Assembly: GCF_003148805.1 (NCBI RefSeq)
Contig: NZ_QGGX01000010.1
Coordinates: 62,001-126,000, forward strand
DNA length: 64,000 nt
From: Aminobacter sp. AP02
Lineage (GTDB): Bacteria; Pseudomonadota; Alphaproteobacteria; Rhizobiales; Rhizobiaceae
Reading direction: 5' to 3'
Shown here: one piece after another, positions 6,442-64,000 of the stretch
Position numbering within the stretch: the stretch's first letter is position 1
Layout: each line of letters begins with the position of its first letter
Notes under the pieces: generated by a model
Told to the model about the DNA's origin: nothing
Databases searched by the model: none
The model's input: the letters and a program-made list of their open reading frames with translations, nothing else
Program-made: the position numbers and the translations under genes

Positions 6442-7547
6442 CAGACGTCCCTCCGCTCGAAATCGATGCGTGGGTCGATCCAGGTGTAGGTGAGGTCGGA
6501 GATCAGGCCGACGATCAGCCCCATCAGGGAGAAGATGTAGAGATTGGCGAAGACCACGGGATAGTCGCGATCGAGCACAGAGCGGAAGCCAAGCAGGCCG
6601 AGCCCGTCGAGCGAGAAGATGTTTTCAATCAGAAGCGAACCGGTGAAGAAGGCCGAGATGAAGGCGCCGGGGAAACCCGCAATGACGATCAGCATGGCGT
6701 TGCGGAAGACGTGGCCGTAAAGCACCTGGCGCTGCGAGAGGCCCTTGGCGCGGGCGGTCACCACATACTGCTTGCGGATCTCGTCGAGGAACGAGTTCTT
6801 GGTCAAAAGCGTGGTCGTGGCGAAGGCCGAAAGCACCAGCGCAGCCAGGGGCAGGGTGATGTGCCAGAGGTAGTCGACGACCTTGCCACCCAGCGACAGC
6901 TGGTCGAAGTTTTCCGAGGTCAGGCCGCGCAGCGGGAACCAATCGAAGAACGAGCCGCCGGCAAAAAGCACCATCAAAAGAATGGCGAAGAGGAAGGCCG
7001 GGATGGCGTAGCCGACGATGATGACGCCACTGGTCCAGATGTCGAAGGTCGAGCCGTCCTTGACCGCCTTGCGGATGCCGAGCGGGATGGAGATGAGGTA
7101 AGACAGCAGCGTGATCCAGATGCCGAGCGAGATCGACACCGGCATCTTGGAGATGATCAGGTCGAGCACCGAGATGTCGCGGAAATAGCTGTCGCCGAAG
7201 TCGAAGCGCGCATAGTTCCACAACATCATGCCGAAGCGTTCGAGCGGCGGTTTGTCGAAGCCGAACTGCTTCTCGAGCTTGGCGATGAATTCGGGATCGA
7301 GCCCCTGGGCGCCGCGATATTTGGACGAGCCTTCGCTGCCGGACGCGTCGAAATTGTTGCCCCCGACATCACCGCCGCTGCCGCCGGACAGGCGGTCGCC
7401 CGCGTCGCCGCCCTGGCCGGTCAGCTTGGCGATGACCTGCTCCACCGGACCGCCTGGAGCAAACTGGATGACGGCGAACGAGATCGCCATGATGCCGAAA
7501 AGGGTCGGTATCATCAAAAGGATACGGCGGAGGATATAGGCGCCCAT
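6441..7547 (-). CDS. yejB: Peptide ABC transporter permease (YejB type)
   Basis: A 368-residue inner-membrane permease: an N-terminal helix (residues about 8-30), a large periplasmic loop, then five helices of the BPD_transp_1 domain with the coupling helix around [24 protein letters not shown]. The loop contains a Gly/Ser/Asp-rich low-complexity stretch (about residues 45-85) before the conserved [18 protein letters not shown]; a similar loop is a family trait. It forms the heterodimeric channel with YejE and is followed directly by it. A 45-bp gap separates it from the upstream binding-protein gene. Confidence 0.93.
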
Positions 7548-7592
7548 CAGGCAAGGCTCCTCAGACGGAGCAATGGGGCAGGGATAGAAATC

Positions 7593-9464
7593 TCAGGTCT
7601 TGCCAATACGTGCAGCCTTGTCCTTGTCGAACCACCACATAGCCTCGACGGGGAAACCGAAATCCGGTTTCGGCTCCTTATAGCCGAACATGTCCCAGAA
7701 TGCGGCGCGGTGATTCGCCGAAAACCAATTTGGAATCCAGTCTAGCCGGGCGCGCAAGGCCCGGTCGAGCGCACGCATGGCAACTGTCAGCGCTTCGCGA
7801 TCCTTGGCCGCACCCACGGCGTCGACCAGCGCGTCGATTGCCGGGTCGGCGGTGCCTGGCAGATTGGTCGAGCCCTGCATGTTGGCTGCGCGGGAATGGA
7901 AAAAACCGTCGATTTCGTCGCGGCTTGGCGTTGCGGAAAACGAGGCAGCGGTCGAGATGGCATCGAAATCGAAGCTGGTCTGCCGCGCCTGGTACTGGGT
8001 CGCGTCGACCATGCGAATGGACGCATCAATACCGATCGTCCGCATGTTCTCGATCCATGGCGAATAGACGCGGACGAAGCTGTCATCGTCGACCAGGACC
8101 TCGAGCGTTAGTGGCTCTCCCTTGGTATTGCGCAAACTGCCGTCCTTGCGCGCCCAGCCGGCATCGGCCAGCAGCTTCGAGGCTTGCCCCAACAGCTTGC
8201 GGTCGCGGCCTGAACCGTCCGAAGGCGGCTGCAGCACTGCCTCGCCGAAGGTTTCCTCGGGAATACGACCGCGGAAAGGCTCTAGCAGCGCCAGTTCAGC
8301 TGCTGAGGGCAATCCCTCGGCGCGATAGGTCGACTTCTCGAAGGTCGATTGGGAGCGCTGATAGGCGCCATAAAACAGGTTGCGATTGGTCCATTCGAAA
8401 TCGAAGCACAGTGCCATGGCGCGGCGCACGCGCGGATCGCGAAATCGTTCGCGCCGTTGGTTGATGGCAGTCGCCTGCATCATCGGCCTTTTCTCGCCGG
8501 GGAACTCGCGCTTGACCACCTTGCCTGAGGTGAAGGCAGGAAAGTCGTAGCCGGTTGCCCAGATACGCGAGGTGAATTCCTGGCGATACGCGATGTCGCC
8601 TTTCTTGAATGCTTCGAAGGCGGCCTGTCTGTCCTGGTAGAACTCGATGCGGATGCGGTCGAAGTTGTAGAGGCCGCGATTGACCGGCAGGTCACGGCCC
8701 CAATAGTCGGCCACCCGCTCATATTCGATCGTCTGGCCGGGGGAGACGCGGCCAACCTTGTAAGGCCCCGACCCCAGCGGCGCCTTCATCTGCGAGGCAT
8801 CGAAAGGATTGGCCTCGAAGAACGATTTCGCCGGGATCGGAAAGGTCGCGATGTCGAGAACAGTCCGGTCTGATTGCTTGCCGTCGAAGCTGATCCGCAG
8901 CGTGTGGGCGTCGAGCGCCTTCGCCTCCACCAGATGGCTGAGCGGTAGGAGCAGGCTGGGATGGCCATCCTTCTTGAACAGCGTGAGAGCATATGCGGCG
9001 TCTTCAGCGGTGAAGGGCGTGCCGTCGTTGAAACGCGCCTCGGACCGCAGCGCGAAATCGAAGCTGTTGCGGTCGTCGGAAATGGTCACCGAGTGCGCCA
9101 GAAGACCGTAGATGGCATCGGGCTCGTCGAGCGCGGACGTCATCAACGAATCGTAGCACAGCCCCATGCGCGGCGGCGCATCGCCGCGGCTGACGAAGGT
9201 GTTGAGCGTGTTGAAGGTGAGCGGGCTCTGATTGAGGACCCAGTTTGGTGGCGAAAAATTGAACGTACCGCCCTTGGGGGCGTCGAGGTTCACGAAGTCG
9301 AAGTTCTTGAAATCAGGACCGTATTTGAGATCGCCGAAAGCCGACAGGCCATGCAGCCCGGTACCGGTCGGACTTGCGGCGAAGACGCGCCTTGGCAGCA
9401 ATGGTACGACGGCCGCCGCCGCACCGAGCGCCAGGAAATCGCGACGGGGCAGGCGCGGGCTCAA
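7593..9464 (-). CDS. Extracellular solute-binding protein, YejA/YepA type (second copy), Tat-exported
   Basis: A 623-residue periplasmic family 5 (SBP_bac_5) peptide-binding protein. The best start is TTG at 9464: it overlaps the TGA of the upstream binding-protein gene by four bases and puts a twin-arginine signal (PRRDFLALGAAAAVV) at the N terminus. An upstream ATG at 9518 would overlap the preceding gene by 58 bp and bury the signal. The mature part has the family landmarks FNFSPPNWVLNQ and FNDGTPFTAEDAAYAL. A Tat signal suggests the protein folds before export. With the paralogue upstream it resembles the YejA plus YepA pair described in Agrobacterium for murein peptides; which is which cannot be said here. 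Confidence 0.88.
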   Translation of the reverse strand: MSPRLPRRDFLALGAAAAVVPLLPRRVFAASPTGTGLHGLSAFGDLKYGPDFKNFDFVNLDAPKGGTFNFSPPNWVLNQSPLTFNTLNTFVSRGDAPPRMGLCYDSLMTSALDEPDAIYGLLAHSVTISDDRNSFDFALRSEARFNDGTPFTAEDAAYALTLFKKDGHPSLLLPLSHLVEAKALDAHTLRISFDGKQSDRTVLDIATFPIPAKSFFEANPFDASQMKAPLGSGPYKVGRVSPGQTIEYERVADYWGRDLPVNRGLYNFDRIRIEFYQDRQAAFEAFKKGDIAYRQEFTSRIWATGYDFPAFTSGKVVKREFPGEKRPMMQATAINQRRERFRDPRVRRAMALCFDFEWTNRNLFYGAYQRSQSTFEKSTYRAEGLPSAAELALLEPFRGRIPEETFGEAVLQPPSDGSGRDRKLLGQASKLLADAGWARKDGSLRNTKGEPLTLEVLVDDDSFVRVYSPWIENMRTIGIDASIRMVDATQYQARQTSFDFDAISTAASFSATPSRDEIDGFFHSRAANMQGSTNLPGTADPAIDALVDAVGAAKDREALTVAMRALDRALRARLDWIPNWFSANHRAAFWDMFGYKEPKPDFGFPVEAMWWFDKDKAARIGKT

Positions 9465-11504: not shown

Positions 11505-12212
11505 TTAGTGAGCGGCAGGAGCTGGCGCAGCGCCTTCTGCAGGGGCTGCCGGGGCAGCGCCCGCGGGAGCGGCAGGAGCAGCACCTTCGGTGGCGGGGGC
11601 TGCGGCAGGGGCCGCGCCAGCCGGAGCCGCTGCGGGCTCAGCCGCCGGAGCCGCGTCAACCGCAGGCAACGGTGCCGGGCTGTCCGACTGCGAATTCAGG
11701 TAGGCGATGAGGTTGGCGCGCTCGTCATCCTTCTTGATGCCGGCAAAGCCCATCGCGGTGCCCTTGATGTAGCCCTTCGGCGACGCCAGGAAGTGGTTGA
11801 GGTGCTCGAAATCCCACACGACGGTACCGCCCTGCGAGAATTCCTTCATGCCGCCGGAATAGGCGAAGCCTTCATGCGAGGCCAGCGGGCGGTTGACGAC
11901 GCCCCAGAGGTCCGGACCGACCTTGTTGGGGCCGCCCTTTTCGATCGAATGGCAGGCGGTGCACTTCTTGAAGACGGCCGCACCGGCTTCGGCATTGGCG
12001 CTGGCCAGCAGCTGTGCGATCGGCACGGCAGCCGGTGCGGCTTCGCCGCCGCCAGCACCCGCGCCGCCTTCTTCAGCGGCCTCGATGGCAAAGCCGGGCT
12101 TCTCGGGAACCGGCGCAGCAAAGATCGCATCCGATATGAGCGAGATGGAGAACACCACAAAGGCAGTACCCAGCAGGCCGCCAAGTACCTTGTTCACTTC
12201 AAATGAGTCCAT
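11505..12212 (-). CDS. cycM: Membrane-anchored cytochrome c (CycM-like)
   Basis: A 235-residue electron carrier. An uncleaved N-terminal helix (residues about 10-30) anchors it in the membrane with the heme domain in the periplasm. The heme c site is CTACH (Cys84, Cys87, His88), and a distal Met ligand is expected in KGTAMGFAG. CycM proteins carry electrons from the bc1 complex to aa3-type oxidase in rhizobia. After the heme domain (ending near residue 177) there is a tail of almost 60 residues made nearly only of Ala and Pro, longer than I would expect. A strong terminator follows. The gene is divergent from kdsB. Confidence 0.88.
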
Positions 12213-12410
12213 ACGCCCCTGGCTCCCTTATCCGGTCGATCGCCATCCTCTGCGACCGCTGCCGTTTGTCGGTAAAGTCTATCGCCCGGCGGACCGGGTC
12301 AAATCGCGCGGAAACTAGGTCTTTTGCTTGCCGGTTGCAACACCTATAAGGGCGCTTCCAGTGAGACGTTTTGACACTTTCCAAAGCCATTTAGAAACAG
12401 TCGTACCGCC

Positions 12411-13139
12411 ATGTCCACCCTTGTCCTGATCCCCGCCCGAATGGCCTCCACACGCTTGCCCGGCAAGCCTTTGGCCGATATCGCCGGCCGTCCGATGATC
12501 GTTCATGTCGCCAGCCGCGCTTCGGAAAGCGGGCTCGGCCGCGTGGTGGTGGCGACCGATACCGATATTGTGGCCGAGACCGTAAGGGCGCATGGCTTCG
12601 AAGCGGTGATGACGCGCGCCGACCATGAGTCGGGTTCGGACCGGATCTTCGAGGCGCTGGCCACGCTCGATCCCAAGGGCCAGGTTGAAACAGTGGTCAA
12701 TGTCCAGGGCGACCTGCCGACCATCGACCCGGGAATCATACAGGCCGCGCTGCGGCCGCTGGAAGAAGCGTCCGTCGACATTTCCACGCTTGGCGTCGAA
12801 ATCACCCGTCCCGAAGAAAAGGTCGATCCGAACGTCCCCAAGATCATCGGCTCGCCATTGTCGGCGCAGCGGCTGAGGGCGCTTTATTTTACCCGTGCCA
12901 CCGCACCCTGGGGCGAGGGCCCGCTCTATCACCATGTCGGGCTTTATGTTTATCGCCGTGCTGCCCTTGAGCGCTTTGTCGGGCTTGGCCCGTCGCCGCT
13001 CGAAAAGCGCGAGCGTCTCGAACAGCTCAGGGCGCTGGAAGCGGGCATGCGCATCGACGTCGAAATCGTCGATACGGTGCCGCTCGGCGTCGACACGCCG
13101 GAGCATCTCGAACGCGCTCGCGAACTTCTCTCAAAATAG
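12411..13139 (+). CDS. kdsB: 3-deoxy-manno-octulosonate cytidylyltransferase
   Basis: A 242-residue cytoplasmic enzyme that activates Kdo with CTP to CMP-Kdo for lipopolysaccharide inner core synthesis. The N terminus has the nucleotidyltransferase motif [16 protein letters not shown] (residues 6-21). Further family marks are [15 protein letters not shown] and [10 protein letters not shown]-like sequence near residue 175. Length fits the family. The prephenate dehydratase gene starts 13 bp after its stop, so the two are probably co-transcribed. Confidence 0.96.
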
Positions 13140-13152
13140 AACAGGCCTGAAA

Positions 13153-14022
13153 ATGCCCGAAAAGACCAACCGCATCTCCTTCCAGGGCGAGCCTGGCGCG
13201 AACTCCGACACGGCGTGCCGCAACGTCTTTCCTCAGATGGAGCCGATGCCGTGCCCGACCTTCGAGGATGCGTTCAATGCGGTGGAAACGGGCAAAGCCG
13301 ACCTGGCGATGATTCCGATCGAAAACACCATCGCCGGTCGCGTCGCCGACATCCATCATCTCTTGCCTGAGTCGAAGCTGCATATCGTCGGCGAGTATTT
13401 CCTGCCGATCCATTTCCAGCTGATGGTTCTGCCGGGCGTGAAGCGCTCGGAGATCAAGACCGTGCACAGCCACATCCACGCGCTGGGCCAGTGCCGCAAA
13501 TACATCCGCAAGAACAGCTGGAAGCCGGTCGTCGCGGGCGACACCGCTGGCGCTGCCAAGCTGGTTTCCGAGGTCAAGGACCGCACCATGGCAGCGCTCG
13601 CGCCGCGCCTGGCGTCCTCGCTCTACGGTCTCGATATCCTCGAGGAAAACGTCGAGGACACCGAAAACAACATCACCCGCTTCGTCGTCCTGTCCAAGGG
13701 CAAGAGCTGGGCCGAGCGCACCAACCCCGACACCAAGATGATGACCACCTTCGTCTTCCGCGTCCGCAACGTGCCGGCAGCGCTCTACAAGGCGATGGGC
13801 GGTTTCGCCACCAACGGCGTCAACATGACCAAGCTGGAGAGCTACCAGCTCGGCGGCGAATTCACCGCGACCCAGTTCTATTCCGACATCGAAGGCCATC
13901 CCGACGACCGCCTGGTCGCGCTCGCGCTGGAGGAACTGCGCTTCTTCACCCGCGAGGTGCGCATTCTCGGCGTCTACGAGGCCAACGAGTTCCGCGGCAC
14001 GCAAAATAACGGCGACGCTTGA
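13153..14022 (+). CDS. pheA: Prephenate dehydratase
   Basis: A 289-residue monofunctional dehydratase converting prephenate to phenylpyruvate in phenylalanine synthesis. The catalytic domain begins at FQGEPGANSD and contains DTAGAAKLV and the catalytic Thr-Arg-Phe in NNITRFVVLSKG. The C-terminal ACT domain (from about residue 205, KMMTTFVFRV) carries ESYQLGGEF, the Phe-binding region for feedback inhibition. The frame stays open far upstream through kdsB, but ATG at 13153 is the domain start. No chorismate mutase domain is fused, as usual in alphaproteobacteria. Confidence 0.95.
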   Translation: MPEKTNRISFQGEPGANSDTACRNVFPQMEPMPCPTFEDAFNAVETGKADLAMIPIENTIAGRVADIHHLLPESKLHIVGEYFLPIHFQLMVLPGVKRSEIKTVHSHIHALGQCRKYIRKNSWKPVVAGDTAGAAKLVSEVKDRTMAALAPRLASSLYGLDILEENVEDTENNITRFVVLSKGKSWAERTNPDTKMMTTFVFRVRNVPAALYKAMGGFATNGVNMTKLESYQLGGEFTATQFYSDIEGHPDDRLVALALEELRFFTREVRILGVYEANEFRGTQNNGDA

Positions 14023-29386: not shown

Positions 29387-30643
29387 CTACTCCTCTTCGA
29401 CGACGCGCAGGCGCAACTGGCCGGTCTTCGAATCGGCCGCGCGCGGGGCTTGCGGCCGTGGCGCTTCCTCGCCTTCGCCGGCATGCCCCGCACCGAACTC
29501 CAGCGCCTCGATCTTTTCGCCGCGCTTGGTGACCTTGGATGACGACACGAGGATGTCGTCGATGTCCTTGCTTGCCTGGCCGAAATGCGTCTGCAGCTTG
29601 CGCACGCGCTCGTCCAGACGCCCGACATCCTCCATCAGCCTGATGACTTCCCCCTGGATCAGGTGCGCCTGTTCGCGCATGCGGGCATCCTTGAGGATCG
29701 CCTGGATGACCTGGATCGACAGCATCAAGAGCGATGGCGAGACGATGACGATGCGGGCGCGGTGGGCGCGCTGCACCAGGGATTCGAAGTTTTCGTGGAT
29801 CTCGGCGAAAATCGATTCCGACGGCACGAACATGAAGGCGGTGTCCTGCGTCTCGCCCGATATCAGGTATTTGTCGGCGATCGCCTTGATGTGGACCTCG
29901 AGGTCGCGCCGGAACGCCTGGGCGGCATATTTTTGGGCATCGACAGTGCCGTTGGTGTCGGCCGCCGCGCGGATCGCGTTCCACGCCTCGAGCGGGAATT
30001 TGGCATCGATCACCAGGGAAGGCGCGCCGTTCGGCATCTTGACCAGGCAGTCCGGCCGGTTGCTGTTCGACAGCGTCGCCTGGAACTCGTAGGCGCCGAG
30101 CGGCAATCCGTCGGCGACGATCGCTTCCATCCGTGATTGGCCAAAGGCACCGCGCGTCTGCTTGTTGGACAGGATTGCCTGCAACTGCACGACCTGGCCG
30201 GCGAGCGACTGGATGTTGCCCTGCGCGGTGTCGATGACGGCCAGCCGCTCCTGCAGCTTGGCGAGGCTGTCATGCGTCGACTTGGTCTGTTCGGCCATGG
30301 TCTGGCCGATGCGGCCGGTCATGGCGTCGAGGCGCTGGCCGAGCGACTGGGTGAGTTCGGCCTGGCGCGCGCCGAAGATGTCGGCGACCGTGCCGAGCCG
30401 GCCCTGCATCTCCGCCTGCGCCTGCAGGATGCCTGCCATGCGGGCTTCTGCGTCGCGGGCGTGGTCGGCGGCTTCGGCGGCGGCGACCGCGCGTGCCTTG
30501 GCCGAACGCCACAGGGCAACCATCAGCATGACGAACAAGGCTACCAACAGAAAGGCCGCGAAGCCAAGTGCCTCGCCGAGCGTGATGATGGTGGCGCCAA
30601 GCTGGGCGACCGGGGCCGACAGGATGCTGGAAAGCTCGTTCAT
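29387..30643 (-). CDS. rmuC: DNA recombination protein RmuC
   Basis: A 418-residue protein with an N-terminal transmembrane helix (about 25-48), a long coiled coil (about 50-190, with repeated MAGILQAQAEMQGRL-type heptads) and the RmuC nuclease-like domain (about 200-370) containing LVIDAKFPLEAW and FVPSESIFAEI. RmuC limits recombination between inverted repeats in E. coli; the catalytic chemistry is PD-(D/E)XK-like. ATG at 30643 is chosen over one 30 bp upstream. It is divergent from def with about 100 bp between. Confidence 0.93.
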   Translation of the reverse strand: MNELSSILSAPVAQLGATIITLGEALGFAAFLLVALFVMLMVALWRSAKARAVAAAEAADHARDAEARMAGILQAQAEMQGRLGTVADIFGARQAELTQSLGQRLDAMTGRIGQTMAEQTKSTHDSLAKLQERLAVIDTAQGNIQSLAGQVVQLQAILSNKQTRGAFGQSRMEAIVADGLPLGAYEFQATLSNSNRPDCLVKMPNGAPSLVIDAKFPLEAWNAIRAAADTNGTVDAQKYAAQAFRRDLEVHIKAIADKYLISGETQDTAFMFVPSESIFAEIHENFESLVQRAHRARIVIVSPSLLMLSIQVIQAILKDARMREQAHLIQGEVIRLMEDVGRLDERVRKLQTHFGQASKDIDDILVSSSKVTKRGEKIEALEFGAGHAGEGEEAPRPQAPRAADSKTGQLRLRVVEEE

Positions 30644-30746
30644 GGCCGGCACAATAACCGATTCGCCCCGCAAGGTCAGATCAAAGCAGGAACATTGCCG
30701 CGTCAGACCAGTTGACGGTTTTATTCCGACATCTTAGTTGAAGCGC

Positions 30747-54822: not shown

Positions 54823-56310
54823 ATGACTGAAGCAGCCGATACCGGCGCATATGCCGGAACACAGGCGGAACGGTCGGTTCCGCGCTCGCGCAGCCTATCG
54901 GCGAAGCTGCTGCTTTTGACCGTTGCTTTCGTGCTCTTCGCCGAAGTGCTGTTCTTCCTGCCTTCGATTGCCAGCTTCCGCATGCGCTGGCTTGAGGAAC
55001 GACTGGCAACCGCGGCGGCCGTCGCGACCATTCTGGTGCAGGGCGATCCGACGACCCTGTCGCGTTCGGCCCAGAACGACGTGCTGGCGGCGATCGGCGC
55101 CAAGGCGATCGCCGTGCGCGACGGCGGGGTGTCAAGGCTGCTCGTCGTTGCCGACATGCCGCCCGAAGTCGACGAACACATCGAGATATCCAAGGCCAGC
55201 GTGCTCAGCTCTATGCCGGCGGCCATAGACACGCTGCTGTTTGGCGGCAACCGGATGCTGCGGGTCTATGGCCCGGTGGGCGAGAGCGCCAAGGAGTTCG
55301 AACTCGTCATCCCCGACTACCGGCTGCATCGTGCGATGCTCGTCAATGCGCGCTACATCGTCTTTGTCTCGCTGCTAATTTCGCTTTGCACGGCAGCTTT
55401 GGTCTATGCCGCCATCGACCGCATCATGATCAAGCCGATCCGCGCCATGACACGCTCGATGCTGACTTTTTCCGATGCGCCTGACAGTCCCGCCGGCGTC
55501 ATCGTTCCCGAAGCGCGATCCGACGAGATTGGACTGGCGGAGCGCGAGCTTGCGGCGATGCAGACGCATTTGCAAAGGATGCTGAGCGAGCAGAAGCATC
55601 TCGCCGATCTCGGTCTGGCCGTGTCCAAGATCAATCACGACATGCGCAACATCTTGGCTTCCGCGCAGCTGATGTCGGACCGTTTGCGCATGGTCAAGGA
55701 TCCGGCGGTGCAGGCCTTTGCCCCGAAATTGCTGAGAACGCTCGACCGCGCCGTCGCCTATTCGGAAAACGTGCTGTCATATGGCCGCGCCCAGGAATTG
55801 CCTCCCGCACGGCGGCGCCTGCGGCTCGCGCAGTTGGTCGACGACGTGCATGGCCTGCTCGGTCTGGAGCCTGAGTCCGGCATCGAATTCAACAACGCTG
55901 TGAGTTCCGATTTCGAGATCGACGCCGATCCCGACCAACTCTTCAGGGTGCTGACCAATCTTTGCCGCAACGCCGTCCAGGCCATGGCCGGCGTCGCCGA
56001 CAGCTCCATCGTCAATCGGCTGACGGTCTATGCCGAACGCGAAGGCAGTGTCAGCCGTATCCTGGTCGCCGACACCGGTCCCGGCCTGCCGCAAAAGGCG
56101 CGCGAAAATCTGTTTGCCGCCTTCCGCGGTTCGGCTCGCAGCGGCGGCACCGGACTTGGCCTCGCCATTGCCCAGGAGCTGGTGCGCGCCCATGGTGGCA
56201 CGCTTGAACTGATCGAGAGTTCCGGCGGGCGCACTGTCTTTGCCGTTGCAATTCCCGACCAGCCGGTTCGCCTCGATGAAGCGCGCCACGGCATGCGCCG
56301 CCCGGCGTGA
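54823..56310 (+). CDS. Orphan sensor histidine kinase
   Basis: A 495-residue membrane kinase: helix 1 (about 27-50), a periplasmic sensor of about 135 residues, helix 2 (about 182-202), a HAMP-like region, then the kinase core. The phospho-acceptor His is in VSKINHDMRNILASA (about 265-279), the N box is NLCRNAVQAM, and G boxes are DTGPGLP and GGTGLGLAIA. No response regulator is adjacent, so the partner is unknown. It is divergent from rpmH. Confidence 0.9.
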   Translation: MTEAADTGAYAGTQAERSVPRSRSLSAKLLLLTVAFVLFAEVLFFLPSIASFRMRWLEERLATAAAVATILVQGDPTTLSRSAQNDVLAAIGAKAIAVRDGGVSRLLVVADMPPEVDEHIEISKASVLSSMPAAIDTLLFGGNRMLRVYGPVGESAKEFELVIPDYRLHRAMLVNARYIVFVSLLISLCTAALVYAAIDRIMIKPIRAMTRSMLTFSDAPDSPAGVIVPEARSDEIGLAERELAAMQTHLQRMLSEQKHLADLGLAVSKINHDMRNILASAQLMSDRLRMVKDPAVQAFAPKLLRTLDRAVAYSENVLSYGRAQELPPARRRLRLAQLVDDVHGLLGLEPESGIEFNNAVSSDFEIDADPDQLFRVLTNLCRNAVQAMAGVADSSIVNRLTVYAEREGSVSRILVADTGPGLPQKARENLFAAFRGSARSGGTGLGLAIAQELVRAHGGTLELIESSGGRTVFAVAIPDQPVRLDEARHGMRRPA

Positions 56311-56445
56311 GGGTGCGCCGCGGTTACGGGCAAGGTGGCAGCCTGTCTTGATCCAGCTCAATGAAGGGCTGGCTGCGAAAGGGTAATCTCAGTCGAGTAC
56401 GCGCCACGGCCTTGTTGGTTGGCGCGTCAAAACAGGAGACTTCCG

Positions 56446-57282
56446 ATGAAGCCGCAATTCTTCCTTCCCCTTGCCACCTATCCCGAGCCCAACTCCGAGG
56501 CGGTGGCATCGAGTGCAGCGTCGATCGCAGCCCAGTTCAAGGCTAACCTGCGTGCGGTGGTGTTCAATCCGGCCATTCCGCAGGTATCCAACGCGCTTTC
56601 GCGCTTGCTGCTCGATACGCCGCAGATGATCCGGGATGCCGAGGCTTCGAGCCGCAGGCATGGCAAGGAACTTCTCGCGGCTGTGGAAGCGAGCGCGAAT
56701 GAGGTCGGCGTCGAGGTCACCACCGGCGAGACATCGGTGCCACTTGCAGCCCTTGGCGAAACGGCCTGCGAGCAGGCCCGCTATTTCGACCTCGCGCTGC
56801 TCGGTTGGGAAGCGGGCAATCAAACCTCGCGCATGCTTGCCGAGGCGGTCGTCTTCGGCGCCGGGCGCCCGACCGTGATCGTACCGAGCCTCTTGACCGT
56901 GGGCGCCATCGACCATGTCGCCATCGCCTGGGACGGCAGCCGCGTTGCGGCACGCGCTGTCGCCGACGCGCGCCCAATCCTGGAAAAGGCATCCAGGATT
57001 TCCGTGATCACCGTCCTCAACGAAAAGAAGCTGCGCGATGCGGATGCGGCGGAACAGCTTGCAGAAGGCTTGCGCCAGCGCGGCCTTGCAGCCGAAGCGG
57101 TGCCGACTTCAATCGGCAACTCGCCCATCGGTGCTACCCTTCAGGAAACCGCTGCTTCACTGGGGGCAAAGCTCCTGGTCATGGGCGGCTATGGCCACTC
57201 CCGCGTGCGTGACTTCGTGCTGGGCGGCGCGACCGAGGGCATCCTGAGCGACCTGCGGTTGCCGGTGCTGCTGTCGCACTGA
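56446..57282 (+). CDS. Universal stress protein, tandem-domain
   Basis: A 278-residue protein with two USP domains (about 1-140 and 150-278). Only the second has the nucleotide-binding pattern: HVAIAWDGSRVAARAV and GGYGHSRVRDFVLGGATEGIL. The first is degenerate. ATP-binding USPs act in stress tolerance. ATG at 56446 follows AGGAGA. It may be co-expressed with the kinase 135 bp upstream. Confidence 0.9.
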   Translation: MKPQFFLPLATYPEPNSEAVASSAASIAAQFKANLRAVVFNPAIPQVSNALSRLLLDTPQMIRDAEASSRRHGKELLAAVEASANEVGVEVTTGETSVPLAALGETACEQARYFDLALLGWEAGNQTSRMLAEAVVFGAGRPTVIVPSLLTVGAIDHVAIAWDGSRVAARAVADARPILEKASRISVITVLNEKKLRDADAAEQLAEGLRQRGLAAEAVPTSIGNSPIGATLQETAASLGAKLLVMGGYGHSRVRDFVLGGATEGILSDLRLPVLLSH

Positions 57283-57345: not shown

Positions 57346-57531
57346 AAAACTTTGCCGGCGGCGGCTTGCAATTCGCAAAGCCAGCCGCTAGGTAGCGCCG
57401 GTCGCTGCGGTCCATTGATCGAAACGACTTGGCCACCTTCATGGCCTGACGCGCGCCCGTAGCTCAGCTGGATAGAGCACCAGACTACGAATCTGGGGGT
57501 CAGAGGTTCGAATCCTTTCGGGCGCGCCATT
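57346..57531. repeat. 186-bp inverted repeat, copy A (contains tRNA-Arg)
   Basis: This segment (the tRNA and 107 bp upstream of it) recurs in reverse complement at 58027-58212. The first 64 bases are identical, a few substitutions lie just before the tRNA, and the whole tRNA is identical. Homology begins abruptly at AAAACTTTGCC and ends two bases after the tRNA. Both copies therefore carry the tRNA with its own promoter region. Confidence 0.93.
57453..57529 (+). tRNA. tRNA-Arg (anticodon ACG), copy A
   Basis: A 77-nt tRNA with encoded CCA. Acceptor GCGCCCG/CGGGCGC, D arm GCTC/GAGC, anticodon arm CCAGA-CTACGAA-TCTGG with anticodon ACG, variable GGGTC, and T arm AGAGG/CCTTT with TTCGAAT. All stems pair. 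The ACG anticodon should be edited to ICG, reading CGU, CGC and CGA. Confidence 0.97.
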
Positions 57532-57550
57532 TTTCACCACCTCACCAAAA

Positions 57551-57970
57551 TTGGAACTGGGCAGCTCTCCCCAAAAGAGGCGGAAGCTCGAGCGGTTGGT
57601 GATCAAGCGCCTTGCCGACAGGCTTCTGACCCCGGCACGCATCGGGGCAAGGAAGACAGATGCGAAAGCGCGCCTCGACCGGCTCTATACCGCCATCGAA
57701 AGCGGCGTTGCCGACTCCTCGGACCACCCCTGATAGGTCGTATCCCCGCAGTCCTGACCGAACGCGAGATCGTCTCTGACCCCGCCGTCACCGAACCTCG
57801 CCGCGCGGCGGATCACGGTAGAAGAGATAGCCACCCTTGTCGATGTGATGCAGTCGAACGTGCTGACCGGCAATACGCTGTTCCGCCGCGCCTATATCCG
57901 CTCGGTCATCGGCCAAGCGGAAATGGACGACGCGGAAAATCCGGATCATCGGCTACCGGACCACGCTTGA
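57551..57970 (+). pseudogene. Decayed C-terminal part of a serine recombinase
   Basis: Two recognisable protein segments in different frames. The first (57551-57733) contains LERLVIKRLADRLLTP then ARLDRLYTAIESGVAD, the coiled-coil region of large serine recombinases. A short bridging part LIGRIPAVLTEREIV follows in another frame. The last, before TGA at 57970, is ITVEEIATLVDVMQSNVL then LFRRAYIRSVIGQAEMDD, the usual C-terminal end. At least two frameshifts and stops break it, and the catalytic N-terminal domain is missing. It is flanked on both sides by the inverted tRNA repeats. Confidence 0.7.
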
Positions 57971-58026
57971 GCGGCTGGCGACGGGAAGGCAGAGCATTCT
58001 GCCGAAATTCTGAGTTTTGTTCGGAG

Positions 58027-58212
58027 AATGGCGCGCCCGAAAGGATTCGAACCTCTGACCCCCAGATTCGTAGTCTGGTGCTCTATCCAGCTGAGCTACG
58101 GGCGCGCATCAGGCCACGGCAGCGGCCAAGTCGTTTCGATCGATGGATCGCAGCGACCGGCGCTACCTAGCGGCTGGCTTTGCGAATTGCAAGCCGCCGC
58201 CGGCAAAGTTTT
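58027..58212. repeat. 186-bp inverted repeat, copy B (contains tRNA-Arg)
   Basis: Reverse complement of 57346-57531 with about eight mismatches in 186 bp, all outside the tRNA, clustered between the tRNA 5' end and the conserved 64-bp block. The spacer between the copies is 495 bp. Confidence 0.93.
58029..58105 (-). tRNA. tRNA-Arg (anticodon ACG), copy B
   Basis: Base-for-base identical to the tRNA at 57453-57529, on the opposite strand, including the encoded CCA. The two tRNA genes point toward each other. Structural features are as in copy A. Confidence 0.97.
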
Positions 58213-58270
58213 CAGGGAAAACCATCCAGCCGGCCGCGAGCCGACCGCGCCGGCTCCACAAACGCGCCGT

Positions 58271-62629: not shown

Positions 62630-62822
62630 GTCTCGACCGCTGACAAATCGATGGACAGCAGTGGTGCGCGGGAAAGGACGGCCAGGCAGCCGGCCTGCGT
62701 CTTCAGTGCCGCAACGTCAATCGTCCCAAACATGGAACGGCAGCCATCTTCATTCGCATGGGGCGGTCGTGTACATCGCGCCTCGGGGGAATTCTCCCGC
62801 CACCTTGCAACAGGATGAAATT

Positions 62823-63158
62823 ATGAGGAAATTTAACGTCGCTCTTGCTCTGTCGGCGGCCGTTCTATGCATGTCTGCCCCGGCTCAGGCCGAGGATCTG
62901 GTGTTCACGCTCAAGAACGGAACGCAATCCACACTCACGCGCTTCTACACGTCTCCGGTGGGCGTCAACAACTGGGAAGATGACGTATTCGGCCAGAATG
63001 TTCTCAACCCGGGCGAGACCATGGAAATCACCATCGCCGACGGGCGCGATGTCTGCAAGTACGACATGAAATTCGAATTCGAACAGGGCTCGGACCTGGA
63101 CACCACGACCGACACGCAGGATCTGTGCGAAATGGGATCCTACACAATCCACGAATGA
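62823..63158 (+). CDS. Small secreted protein of unknown function
   Basis: A 111-residue exported protein. The signal peptide MRKFNVALALSAAVLCMSA is cleaved likely after PAQA. The mature 87 residues look all-beta: LVFTLKNGTQSTLTRFYTSP, VGVNNWEDDVFGQNVLNPGE, then two Cys (GRDVCKYDMKF; TQDLCEMGSYTIHE) able to form a disulfide. Short Asp/Thr-rich loops (LDTTTDTQD) could bind calcium. Rhizobial relatives exist, sometimes carrying misleading enzyme names. ATG at 62823 has AGGA upstream. The 193 bp before it hold nothing recognised. Confidence 0.75.
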   Translation: MRKFNVALALSAAVLCMSAPAQAEDLVFTLKNGTQSTLTRFYTSPVGVNNWEDDVFGQNVLNPGETMEITIADGRDVCKYDMKFEFEQGSDLDTTTDTQDLCEMGSYTIHE

Positions 63159-63197
63159 CCAATTGTTTGCGGGGAGCCGGTCTATGGCTCTCCGCAA

Positions 63198-64000
63198 CTA
63201 CCTGCCGGCTGGCTCATGCAATTCCAAAGGCGCGTCGAGGCAGGCCTCGTGGAATGCTTGCGACGCGGCTGCAAGCTTGATGGCCTGCCAGTGCCTGTAG
63301 GCACGCACGAGATCCGGCGAGATCCAGCAATTGCCCCTGTTACTGCTGTTGGTCCAGCCGACGAGCCCCGCATCTCGCGCCAGCCCGAAAAGCCGGGCGG
63401 CATGTGTCCGCGAAATTCGGTATCGCTGCGACAGCGCATTGGGCGACACCTTTCCGACCCCGATCGGCGACGTCATGTCGCTCGACAGCGAGGGAACGCC
63501 CTTGATCAGGCAATGCAGGATGCTGCTGCCGGAGTCGGAGCGCACGAACTTGGCGATGTTCTGCGGCGGTCTGTGCCAAGCGTCGAGCGCGAGAAGAAGC
63601 CGCGCGAAACGGGGCTGCGCCTGAAGCAGAATGCCAGGATGCCGGCATGACAGGACGTAGCGCTGCCCGTTGTCGACAACATCCAGAGCCCGCAGGTGGA
63701 TGTCGAAATAGCGCCGGATGAGGCGTTCGCTCATCTCGGTCGCCTGAAAAAACCGTTGTCGCCTGTCGTCGCTCGGTCGTGGCACGATAAAGCCGTAGCG
63801 CTTCAGTTCCTGCAGAAAACCATACACTGTGTTGCGGCTGGCTATCCCGGTGCCCGCCAGGGCGTCGACCAGGTTCTTGGCGGAAATCGGCGGGGCGGCA
63901 GGATCGAGGCTGCTCTCGAAATGCATGGCGACCGTCATCTGACTGAGCAGCCATCGCTGCAAGTCGGCGACGTAGTGAACCTCCTGGGGCAGGGCCAGGT
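63198..64000 (-). CDS. Winged-helix regulator-like protein, cut by window edge
   Basis: At least 266 residues; the frame is open at the right edge, so the true start may lie outside. A winged helix (ISAKNLVDALAGTGIASRNTVYGFLQELKRYGFIVPRPSDDRRQRFF) is MarR-like, with a second HTH-like stretch (ALSQRYRISRTHAARLFGLARDAGLVG) near the C-terminus. Two separate DNA-binding-like segments are unusual. I do not recognise the family or targets. Confidence 0.6.
   Translation of the reverse strand, partial: LALPQEVHYVADLQRWLLSQMTVAMHFESSLDPAAPPISAKNLVDALAGTGIASRNTVYGFLQELKRYGFIVPRPSDDRRQRFFQATEMSERLIRRYFDIHLRALDVVDNGQRYVLSCRHPGILLQAQPRFARLLLALDAWHRPPQNIAKFVRSDSGSSILHCLIKGVPSLSSDMTSPIGVGKVSPNALSQRYRISRTHAARLFGLARDAGLVGWTNSSNRGNCWISPDLVRAYRHWQAIKLAAASQAFHEACLDAPLELHEPAGR

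Follow-up and report, generated by a model that had tools for sequence, protein, structure and literature searches.

Facing tRNA-Arg(ACG) genes in Aminobacter sp. AP02: probable inversion of an old second copy beside the relic of a tRNA-targeting serine recombinase

Duplicated RNA genes are known to undergo both gene conversion and inversion, and paralogous tRNA copies are homogenised in either orientation; what distinguishes the locus described here from this general behavior is that its inversion would have carried the relic of an integrase along. Among mobile elements, the closest described counterparts are the tRNA islands with tyrosine integrases treated in the available sections of the Islander report (PMC4383910), which share with the elements considered below the targeting of a tRNA 3' end, the position of the integrase gene beside the tRNA, the preservation of an intact tRNA and a tRNA fragment at the far end. 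They differ in that the enzyme here is a large serine recombinase, and in that the exact shared core comprises only 6 bases in Sinorhizobium meliloti. The same sections mention that the integrase genes of Mx8 and SSV cross attP (“integrase” there denoting the tyrosine type); as here, the gene spans the attachment site and its end is altered by integration, whereas here the enzyme belongs to another family and the new end is supplied by a tRNA read antisense.

Serine recombinases have also been found at tRNA genes, namely in phage RSM1 at tRNA-Ser and in Mycobacterium AICEs at tRNA-Leu, in a source whose available text calls serine integrase insertion into tRNA genes rare (PMC3218068), and in Paracoccus phage Pami6 at tRNA-Met (PMC6536676); in Mesorhizobium, 6 of 79 ICEs/IMEs are listed with serine recombinases in the accessible part of PMC8627217. 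RSM1, the AICEs and Pami6 combine the same enzyme type with a tRNA target, but the available passages of PMC3218068 and PMC6536676 describe no antisense overlap between recombinase frame and tRNA, and the tRNAs hit are Ser, Leu and Met as against Arg, Ser, Met, Asn and Glu at our loci. The available text of PMC10083194 contains no word starting with tRNA. Among the titles and abstract openings of the top literature matches no description of the antisense recombinase-tRNA overlap was found, and one may be in print. We regard this recombinase group as little described.

In Aminobacter sp. AP02, two tRNA-Arg(ACG) genes face each other around what is left of such a recombinase. We consider it quite probable, from comparison of sequences, that this facing pair arose by inversion of an old second copy combined with gene conversion, with the remnant of a tRNA-targeting serine integrase next to that copy. 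The observations that speak for this are direct pairs in relatives, a copy-2 edge at the turned copy, an inverted neighbouring segment, the recombinase relic itself and its frame entering the second tRNA.

The facing tRNA pair and the recombinase relic

The window, by which we mean the whole stretch of 64,000 nucleotides that was analysed, corresponds to C10:62001-126000 of a 5.6-Mb draft genome in 72 contigs, and the site lies within a 219-kb contig. A sequence-only reading of the window had described a tRNA-Arg(ACG) pair in facing 186-bp arms around 495 bp, and ARAGORN, Rfam and the alignment of the arms bear this out (Table 1). The two tRNA genes are identical in sequence and face each other, and the full arms (57346-57531 and 58027-58212) are 186 nt each, 96% complementary (178/186 identical) and separated by a 495-nt spacer. 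The arm alignment, a check proposed in the same reading, found its coordinates right and revealed eight mismatches in 186 positions, which are confined to 57410-57450 in the 5' flank and leave the arms near-identical rather than identical; perfect identity between them extends over 81 bp at the inner ends and 64 bp at the outer ends. Judging from the 186-nt size, a chance origin of the arms can be excluded.

Table 1. Features of the facing tRNA-Arg(ACG) pair and its surroundings in the window.
Feature	Position	Strand	Evidence
Histidine kinase at the end of the conserved left flank; tRNA-Arg(ACG) normally comes directly after it	54823-56310	+	HATPase_c above Pfam cut-off, HisKA below
Universal stress protein-like gene, upstream of copy 1	56419-57282	+	Usp (Pfam), blastn
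Arm 1, conserved 5' flank of copy 1	57346-57452	+	repeat alignment
tRNA-Arg(ACG) copy 1	57453-57529	+	ARAGORN, Rfam
Left end of centre, possible but weak second attL half-site	57530-57583	.	12/1000 shuffles reach score
Decayed C-terminal part of large serine recombinase (pseudogene)	57584-58028	+	tblastn E 5e-19 to L099 residues 375-560
tRNA-Arg(ACG) copy 2, reversed relative to 8 near-complete relatives	58029-58105	-	ARAGORN, Rfam, blast comparison
Recombinase last codons and stop (WRARKDSNL*), antisense within tRNA copy 2	58029-58058	+	frame alignment, same arrangement in relatives
5' flank of copy 2 (arm 2), inner part now resembling copy 1 (probable gene conversion)	58106-58212	-	flank comparison
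Arm 2 outer edge, copy-2 signature of relatives	58213-58228	-	edge match sums versus shuffles
Segment that adjoins copy 2 on its upstream side in G009 and is oriented the other way in both G009 and G008; inversion evidence	62712-64000	+	blastn

The gene for the universal stress protein-like product stands beside copy 1 in Aminobacter sp. AP02 and in the relative G001, and in G004 a blastn homologue lies upstream of copy 2. An RmuC-family gene occupies 29387-30673, 27 kb from the repeat, and may have prompted the mention of RmuC-type control in the sequence-only reading.

The centre between the arms matches the C-terminal approximately 185 residues (about 375-560) of L099, a serine recombinase of 560 aa (tblastn E 5e-19 against a 94-kb stretch of the source genome), and it reads in two frames with several stops, two internal gaps and one frame change, in agreement with the frameshifted recombinase C-terminus that the sequence-only reading had recognised. 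When the centre was searched against recombinase families, as also proposed there, its placement as a large serine recombinase came from tblastn to L099 and not from profile families: piece 1 of the relic has no family in Pfam, NCBIfam or PHROGs, and piece 2 none in NCBIfam or PHROGs. Against plasmids, piece 1 gave no tblastn match and the DNA of the centre one weak partial match. Within the genus, piece 1 matched the source genome only (1 of 10), and within the family it matched at E <=0.01 in 25 of 297 genomes, the source included (best outside the source, 9.5e-6). Most of these matches fall in open frames 430-780 aa long, and it was solely through full-length frames from those family loci, together with local tblastn, that the relic could be placed. 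Three full relatives of the recombinase have Resolvase, Recombinase and zinc ribbon domains all present, and the relic is a C-terminal remainder whose piece 1 is without a Pfam domain. As far as its reading frames indicate, the centre is a relic, not a working member, of the tRNA-targeting recombinase elements.

That the relic stems from serine recombinase integration at a tRNA gene, another proposal of the sequence-only reading, fits what we found, since its frame enters tRNA copy 2 in a convergent overlap and its relatives are, as set out below, elements that integrate at the 3' ends of tRNAs. The 3' flank of tRNA copy 2 matches the half-site of the element expected at an attL (1/1000 shuffles), as does the 3' flank of copy 1 in G001 (0/1000 shuffles); the same test is weak for copy 1 of G005 (75/1000 shuffles). 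A second attL at tRNA copy 1 of the source genome was considered and judged too weak to use, being one of 13 comparisons (Table 1). Elsewhere in the source genome there are one other C-terminal recombinase piece (C35) and one distant recombinase (C34). The C-terminal piece L210 (G000:C35:8927-9589) is 63% identical to L099 and has WRARRDSNL in frame, with no adjoining tRNA called.

Orientation of the pair in relatives and origin of the turned copy

Copy number and orientation were compared across a genus sample of 10 Aminobacter genomes, source included, with the 115-bp flank as query, a comparison that the sequence-only reading had also put forward. The query has two matches each in the source genome and in 8 near-complete relatives; G008, at 81% completeness, gave none. 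Both copies, with the same flank, have the same orientation in 8/8 near-complete relatives, in which they are approximately 0.5, 1.5, 2.3, 3.4, 5.1, 9.3, 33 and 35 kb apart. Among 80 named loci listed, 77 have a tRNA-Arg(ACG) on the plus strand after the histidine kinase; of the other three, L148 and L192 stop less than 200 bp from the kinase and L180 has 10 kb without a tRNA. A second tRNA-Arg(ACG), always direct, occurs in 5 of the 80 (A. ciceronei, A. niigataensis, A. aganoensis, A. carboxidus and M. neociceri, L151), a count that would miss second copies more than 10 kb away and in which 4 of the 80 loci come from the same genomes as four of the 8 relatives and are not independent of them. 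No inverted pair was seen in the 8 near-complete relatives, nor among the 80 named loci listed, with up to 10 kb visible at each, which agrees with the earlier impression that the inverted orientation is unusual. In M. neociceri, the only non-Aminobacter case of a second copy among the 80 listed, the direct second tRNA-Arg(ACG) is 4.3 kb from the first.

The left core is common to 8/8 relatives, the conserved DNA stopping at 56310 in 7 of them and at the tRNA in G001, and the right core is found in 7/8, from about 94848 (about 94468 in G005; extended window coordinates), and on another contig in G001. The island between the two cores differs from genome to genome, and this pattern of sequence conservation marks the locus as a long-used hot spot of integration. 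In the variable island (L066), two frames of 563 aa each, at 6972-8663 and 11625-13316, begin alike and may be paralogues.

Two comparisons bear on the identity of the turned copy. First, the 16 bases at the outer edge of arm 2 give a match sum of 54 against the copy-2 edges of relatives (shuffle mean 33.7, reached by 1/2000 shuffles) and of 46 against their copy-1 edges (shuffle mean 44.4, fraction 0.41), where 6/8 copy-2 edges (copy 2 of G004 and G006 left out) and 8/8 copy-1 edges were anchored, G002 and G003 being identical, so that the rows are not independent. The arm 1 edge matches both edge sets about equally (0.007 and 0.0055), and therefore only the arm 2 edge is informative. Second, the long segment 62712-64082 has homologous DNA in two relatives only. 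In G009 this DNA adjoins copy 2 on its upstream side; in G008 it is close to the right core, with an attR scar on its other side. In both relatives it has the opposite orientation relative to the right core, and in the source genome it is turned round, as copy 2 is. Only those long matches were used, short ones (about 280 bases, 69-74%) to part of 62712-64000 occurring elsewhere in most genomes searched; G008 has no tRNA in the 40 kb beside the right core and is thus silent on the orientation of copy 2. Because the direct two-copy state with the same 107-bp flank extends across the genus, and because the arm 2 edge corresponds to copy 2 of the relatives, it was probably an existing copy that was inverted.

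The 107-bp flanks of arm 1 and arm 2 are 93% alike, as against 74-83% between copy 1 and copy 2 within the genomes of 6 relatives, 91% in G006 and 97% in G009. Since the copies in G006 and G009 are direct, gene conversion is therefore likely to be habitual at this locus.

The following course of events would account for these observations. In the Aminobacter ancestor, the histidine kinase and the right core would have flanked a direct repeat of two tRNA-Arg(ACG) genes, and large serine recombinase elements would have integrated at the 3' ends of such genes, each with its recombinase gene abutting the tRNA and overlapping it antisense. In the source genome, decay would have reduced one element to the final third of its recombinase, and an inversion with one breakpoint inside or beside the recombinase gene, just 3' of copy 1, would have turned copy 2 together with neighbouring island DNA. 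We infer one single inversion event, timed either before or after the gene conversion that would have made the copy 2 flank resemble the copy 1 flank, and the pair presumably has no present function. The tRNA repeats themselves were considered as the cause of the inversion and rejected, since recombination between direct repeats deletes and does not invert. On this account the locus is a fossil and would illustrate how two tRNA genes end up facing each other without new duplication.

Several observations count against the inversion. The island of the source genome has, besides the segment and the arms, no DNA in common with the islands of relatives (blastn E 1e-6). Moreover, 50000-144000 of the source genome yielded neither an attR scar (best score 20/31, background level) nor an N-terminal half of the recombinase, and the reciprocal junction of the inversion is for that reason not located. 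Finally, the element evidence in relatives sits at copy 1, not at copy 2, in G001, in G005 (a recombinase relic) and in G009 (an intact recombinase of another clade), and in G008 by position only, no tRNA having been seen there. This leaves three options: insertion of the source genome's element at copy 2, a later flip of the centre, or an assembly that settled on the other orientation.

The second of these options, in which homologous recombination between the 186-bp arms turns the centre so that both orientations occur, is compatible with an inverted old copy 2 and strikes us as unlikely, if still the best placed of the alternatives. The stretches of perfect identity at the inner and outer ends of the arms would suit it, as would the traces of past gene conversion in them, and a centre flipped once would fit the element site at copy 1 in relatives. 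Nonetheless, the centre is a pseudogene, such that nothing would be switched, and it has no intact recombinase next to it.

A fresh inverted duplication of copy 1, comprising the tRNA and its promoter and followed by loss of the original copy 2, is improbable. It would explain why the flanks of the arms are more alike than those of the two copies in 6/8 relatives, but the flanks in G006 and G009 are equally alike with direct copies, which points to common gene conversion. A recent inverted duplication should also have left the second copy with an outer edge derived from the first, whereas the arm 2 edge is copy-2-like, and the neighbouring segment is inverted as well. The “inverted-duplication capture” suggested by the sequence-only reading is consequently not upheld, given the direct pairs with the same 107-bp flank across the genus and the copy-2-type edge at arm 2.

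An assembly artefact is very improbable, even though the genome is a draft of 72 contigs and inverted repeats are able to mislead assembly: the site is inside its contig, the arms differ at 8 sites, and the copy-2 edge is consistent with the inverted segment. Inverted arms, furthermore, should leave ambiguous only the orientation of the 495-bp centre and not that of tRNA copy 2 relative to copy 1. Lastly, it is scarcely credible that the repeats form a functional invertible switch or a hairpin under the RmuC-type control that had been raised for them, for although inverted repeats and an RmuC-family gene are both present in the window, this gene is 27 kb off with nothing seen tying it to the repeat, the segment contains neither an intact recombinase nor any other gene (no ORF longer than 62 aa lies wholly inside the centre), and a hairpin is not likely with so long a spacer.

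Recombinases that run into tRNA 3' ends and their attachment sites

The relatives through which the relic was placed show how their frames meet tRNA genes. In a first sample of 30 loci, of which 27 have a recombinase match, the frame overlaps a convergent tRNA in 22/27, running into it in 14 and through it in 8, with Arg, Ser, Met and Asn tRNAs as targets; the exceptions are L091, L113 and L210, without a called tRNA, and L096 and L108, with a gap. For a second sample, the best PF07508 matches were taken across 150 genomes of the order; of the 29 loci read, 25 have a catalytic frame, and among these 25 a convergent tRNA is overlapped in 14 (13 Met, 1 Glu), none is overlapped in 10, and one contig ends at the site. 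Both samples were picked by recombinase similarity, not by tRNA, and represent best-scoring loci and not a random draw. By this arrangement of frames and tRNAs, the recombinase relatives are integrative elements at tRNA 3' ends. Across 22 loci (within L088-L115) and 14 loci (within L248-L275), two main registers were noticed, DSN for Arg, Ser, Asn and Glu and GFEP or similar for most Met targets.

The attachment sites can be read in S. meliloti, where pSymB of strain ml21 has such a recombinase at tRNA-Arg(CCG) and pSymB of strain ml59 is without the island. The ml21 island measures about 38.5 kb, and ml59 holds its exact empty site (L279/L276, CP140937.1, about 413820-452366; L280, CP140948.1); in 10 of the 12 listed records, the match starts no earlier than the last base of tRNA-Arg(CCG). 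There, attB and attL share GGGTGCGCCA and then diverge, and attR consists of GGGCGCGCCA followed by the attB flank. This pattern of sharing places the crossover within GCGCCA, the last six bases of the tRNA. Across the two half-sites of the element, a 15-bp perfect inverted repeat surrounds the GCGCCA core (0/5000 shuffles); such a dyad is expected for the attP of a serine integrase.

Among elements of the same clade, meaning those whose recombinases are 67-74% identical to L099, or L099 itself, the attR motif scores 26-29 of 31 on the expected strand in 4/4 cases, as against at most 22 in the other 9, and the same-clade elements are thus approximately 20-33 kb long. At the Aminobacter locus, attR scars score 25 (G001), 26 (G005) and 27 (G008) of 31, and G009 has one of another type (32/33). 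This G009 candidate has no dyad (run of 4, 3423/5000 shuffles), and its sequence recurs in the element at L110, where the recombinase is 93% identical. A search of 13 elements for an attR in the form of an exact tRNA repeat of 12 or more bases gave only one near the tRNA 3' end (L102). The ml21 island also encodes a relaxase (Pfam), an annotated coupling protein, type I restriction, AbiE and a tyrosine integrase, and it may be composite. A homologue of that tyrosine integrase is present in only 1/4 same-clade elements, and we therefore take the serine recombinase to be the common factor.

Since the recombinase frame crosses the crossover point, the host tRNA supplies the last codons of the recombinase and its stop, and the tail is exchanged on integration. 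The tail reads WRTRQDSNL* in the integrated S. meliloti record and WRAREDETGHSYVIVAPIHF* in the attR-side frame, which is the predicted excised form. Tentatively, and with less than even expectation, we put forward that there is a widespread class of large serine integrases in the Hyphomicrobiales that recombine within the last six bases of a tRNA gene, with a frame that crosses the crossover and final codons and stop given by the antisense tRNA, the integrated tail (here WRTRQDSNL) thereby differing from the predicted excised one (here WRAREDETGHSYVIVAPIHF); such a tail could signal the integration state and bias the direction of the reaction. Serine integrases are prized as tools, and we see the wider value of this work in the recombinase class, which is frequent in one order in our samples, has readable att sites and has a frame completed by its target, so that control of recombination direction by a tail swap is directly testable; it is the part worth pursuing. 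At L225 (G294:C4), a single element locus has two attR motifs, near 3.2 kb and near 6.1 kb (27373 and 30274 once the stretch is turned), which suggests tandem elements at one tRNA.
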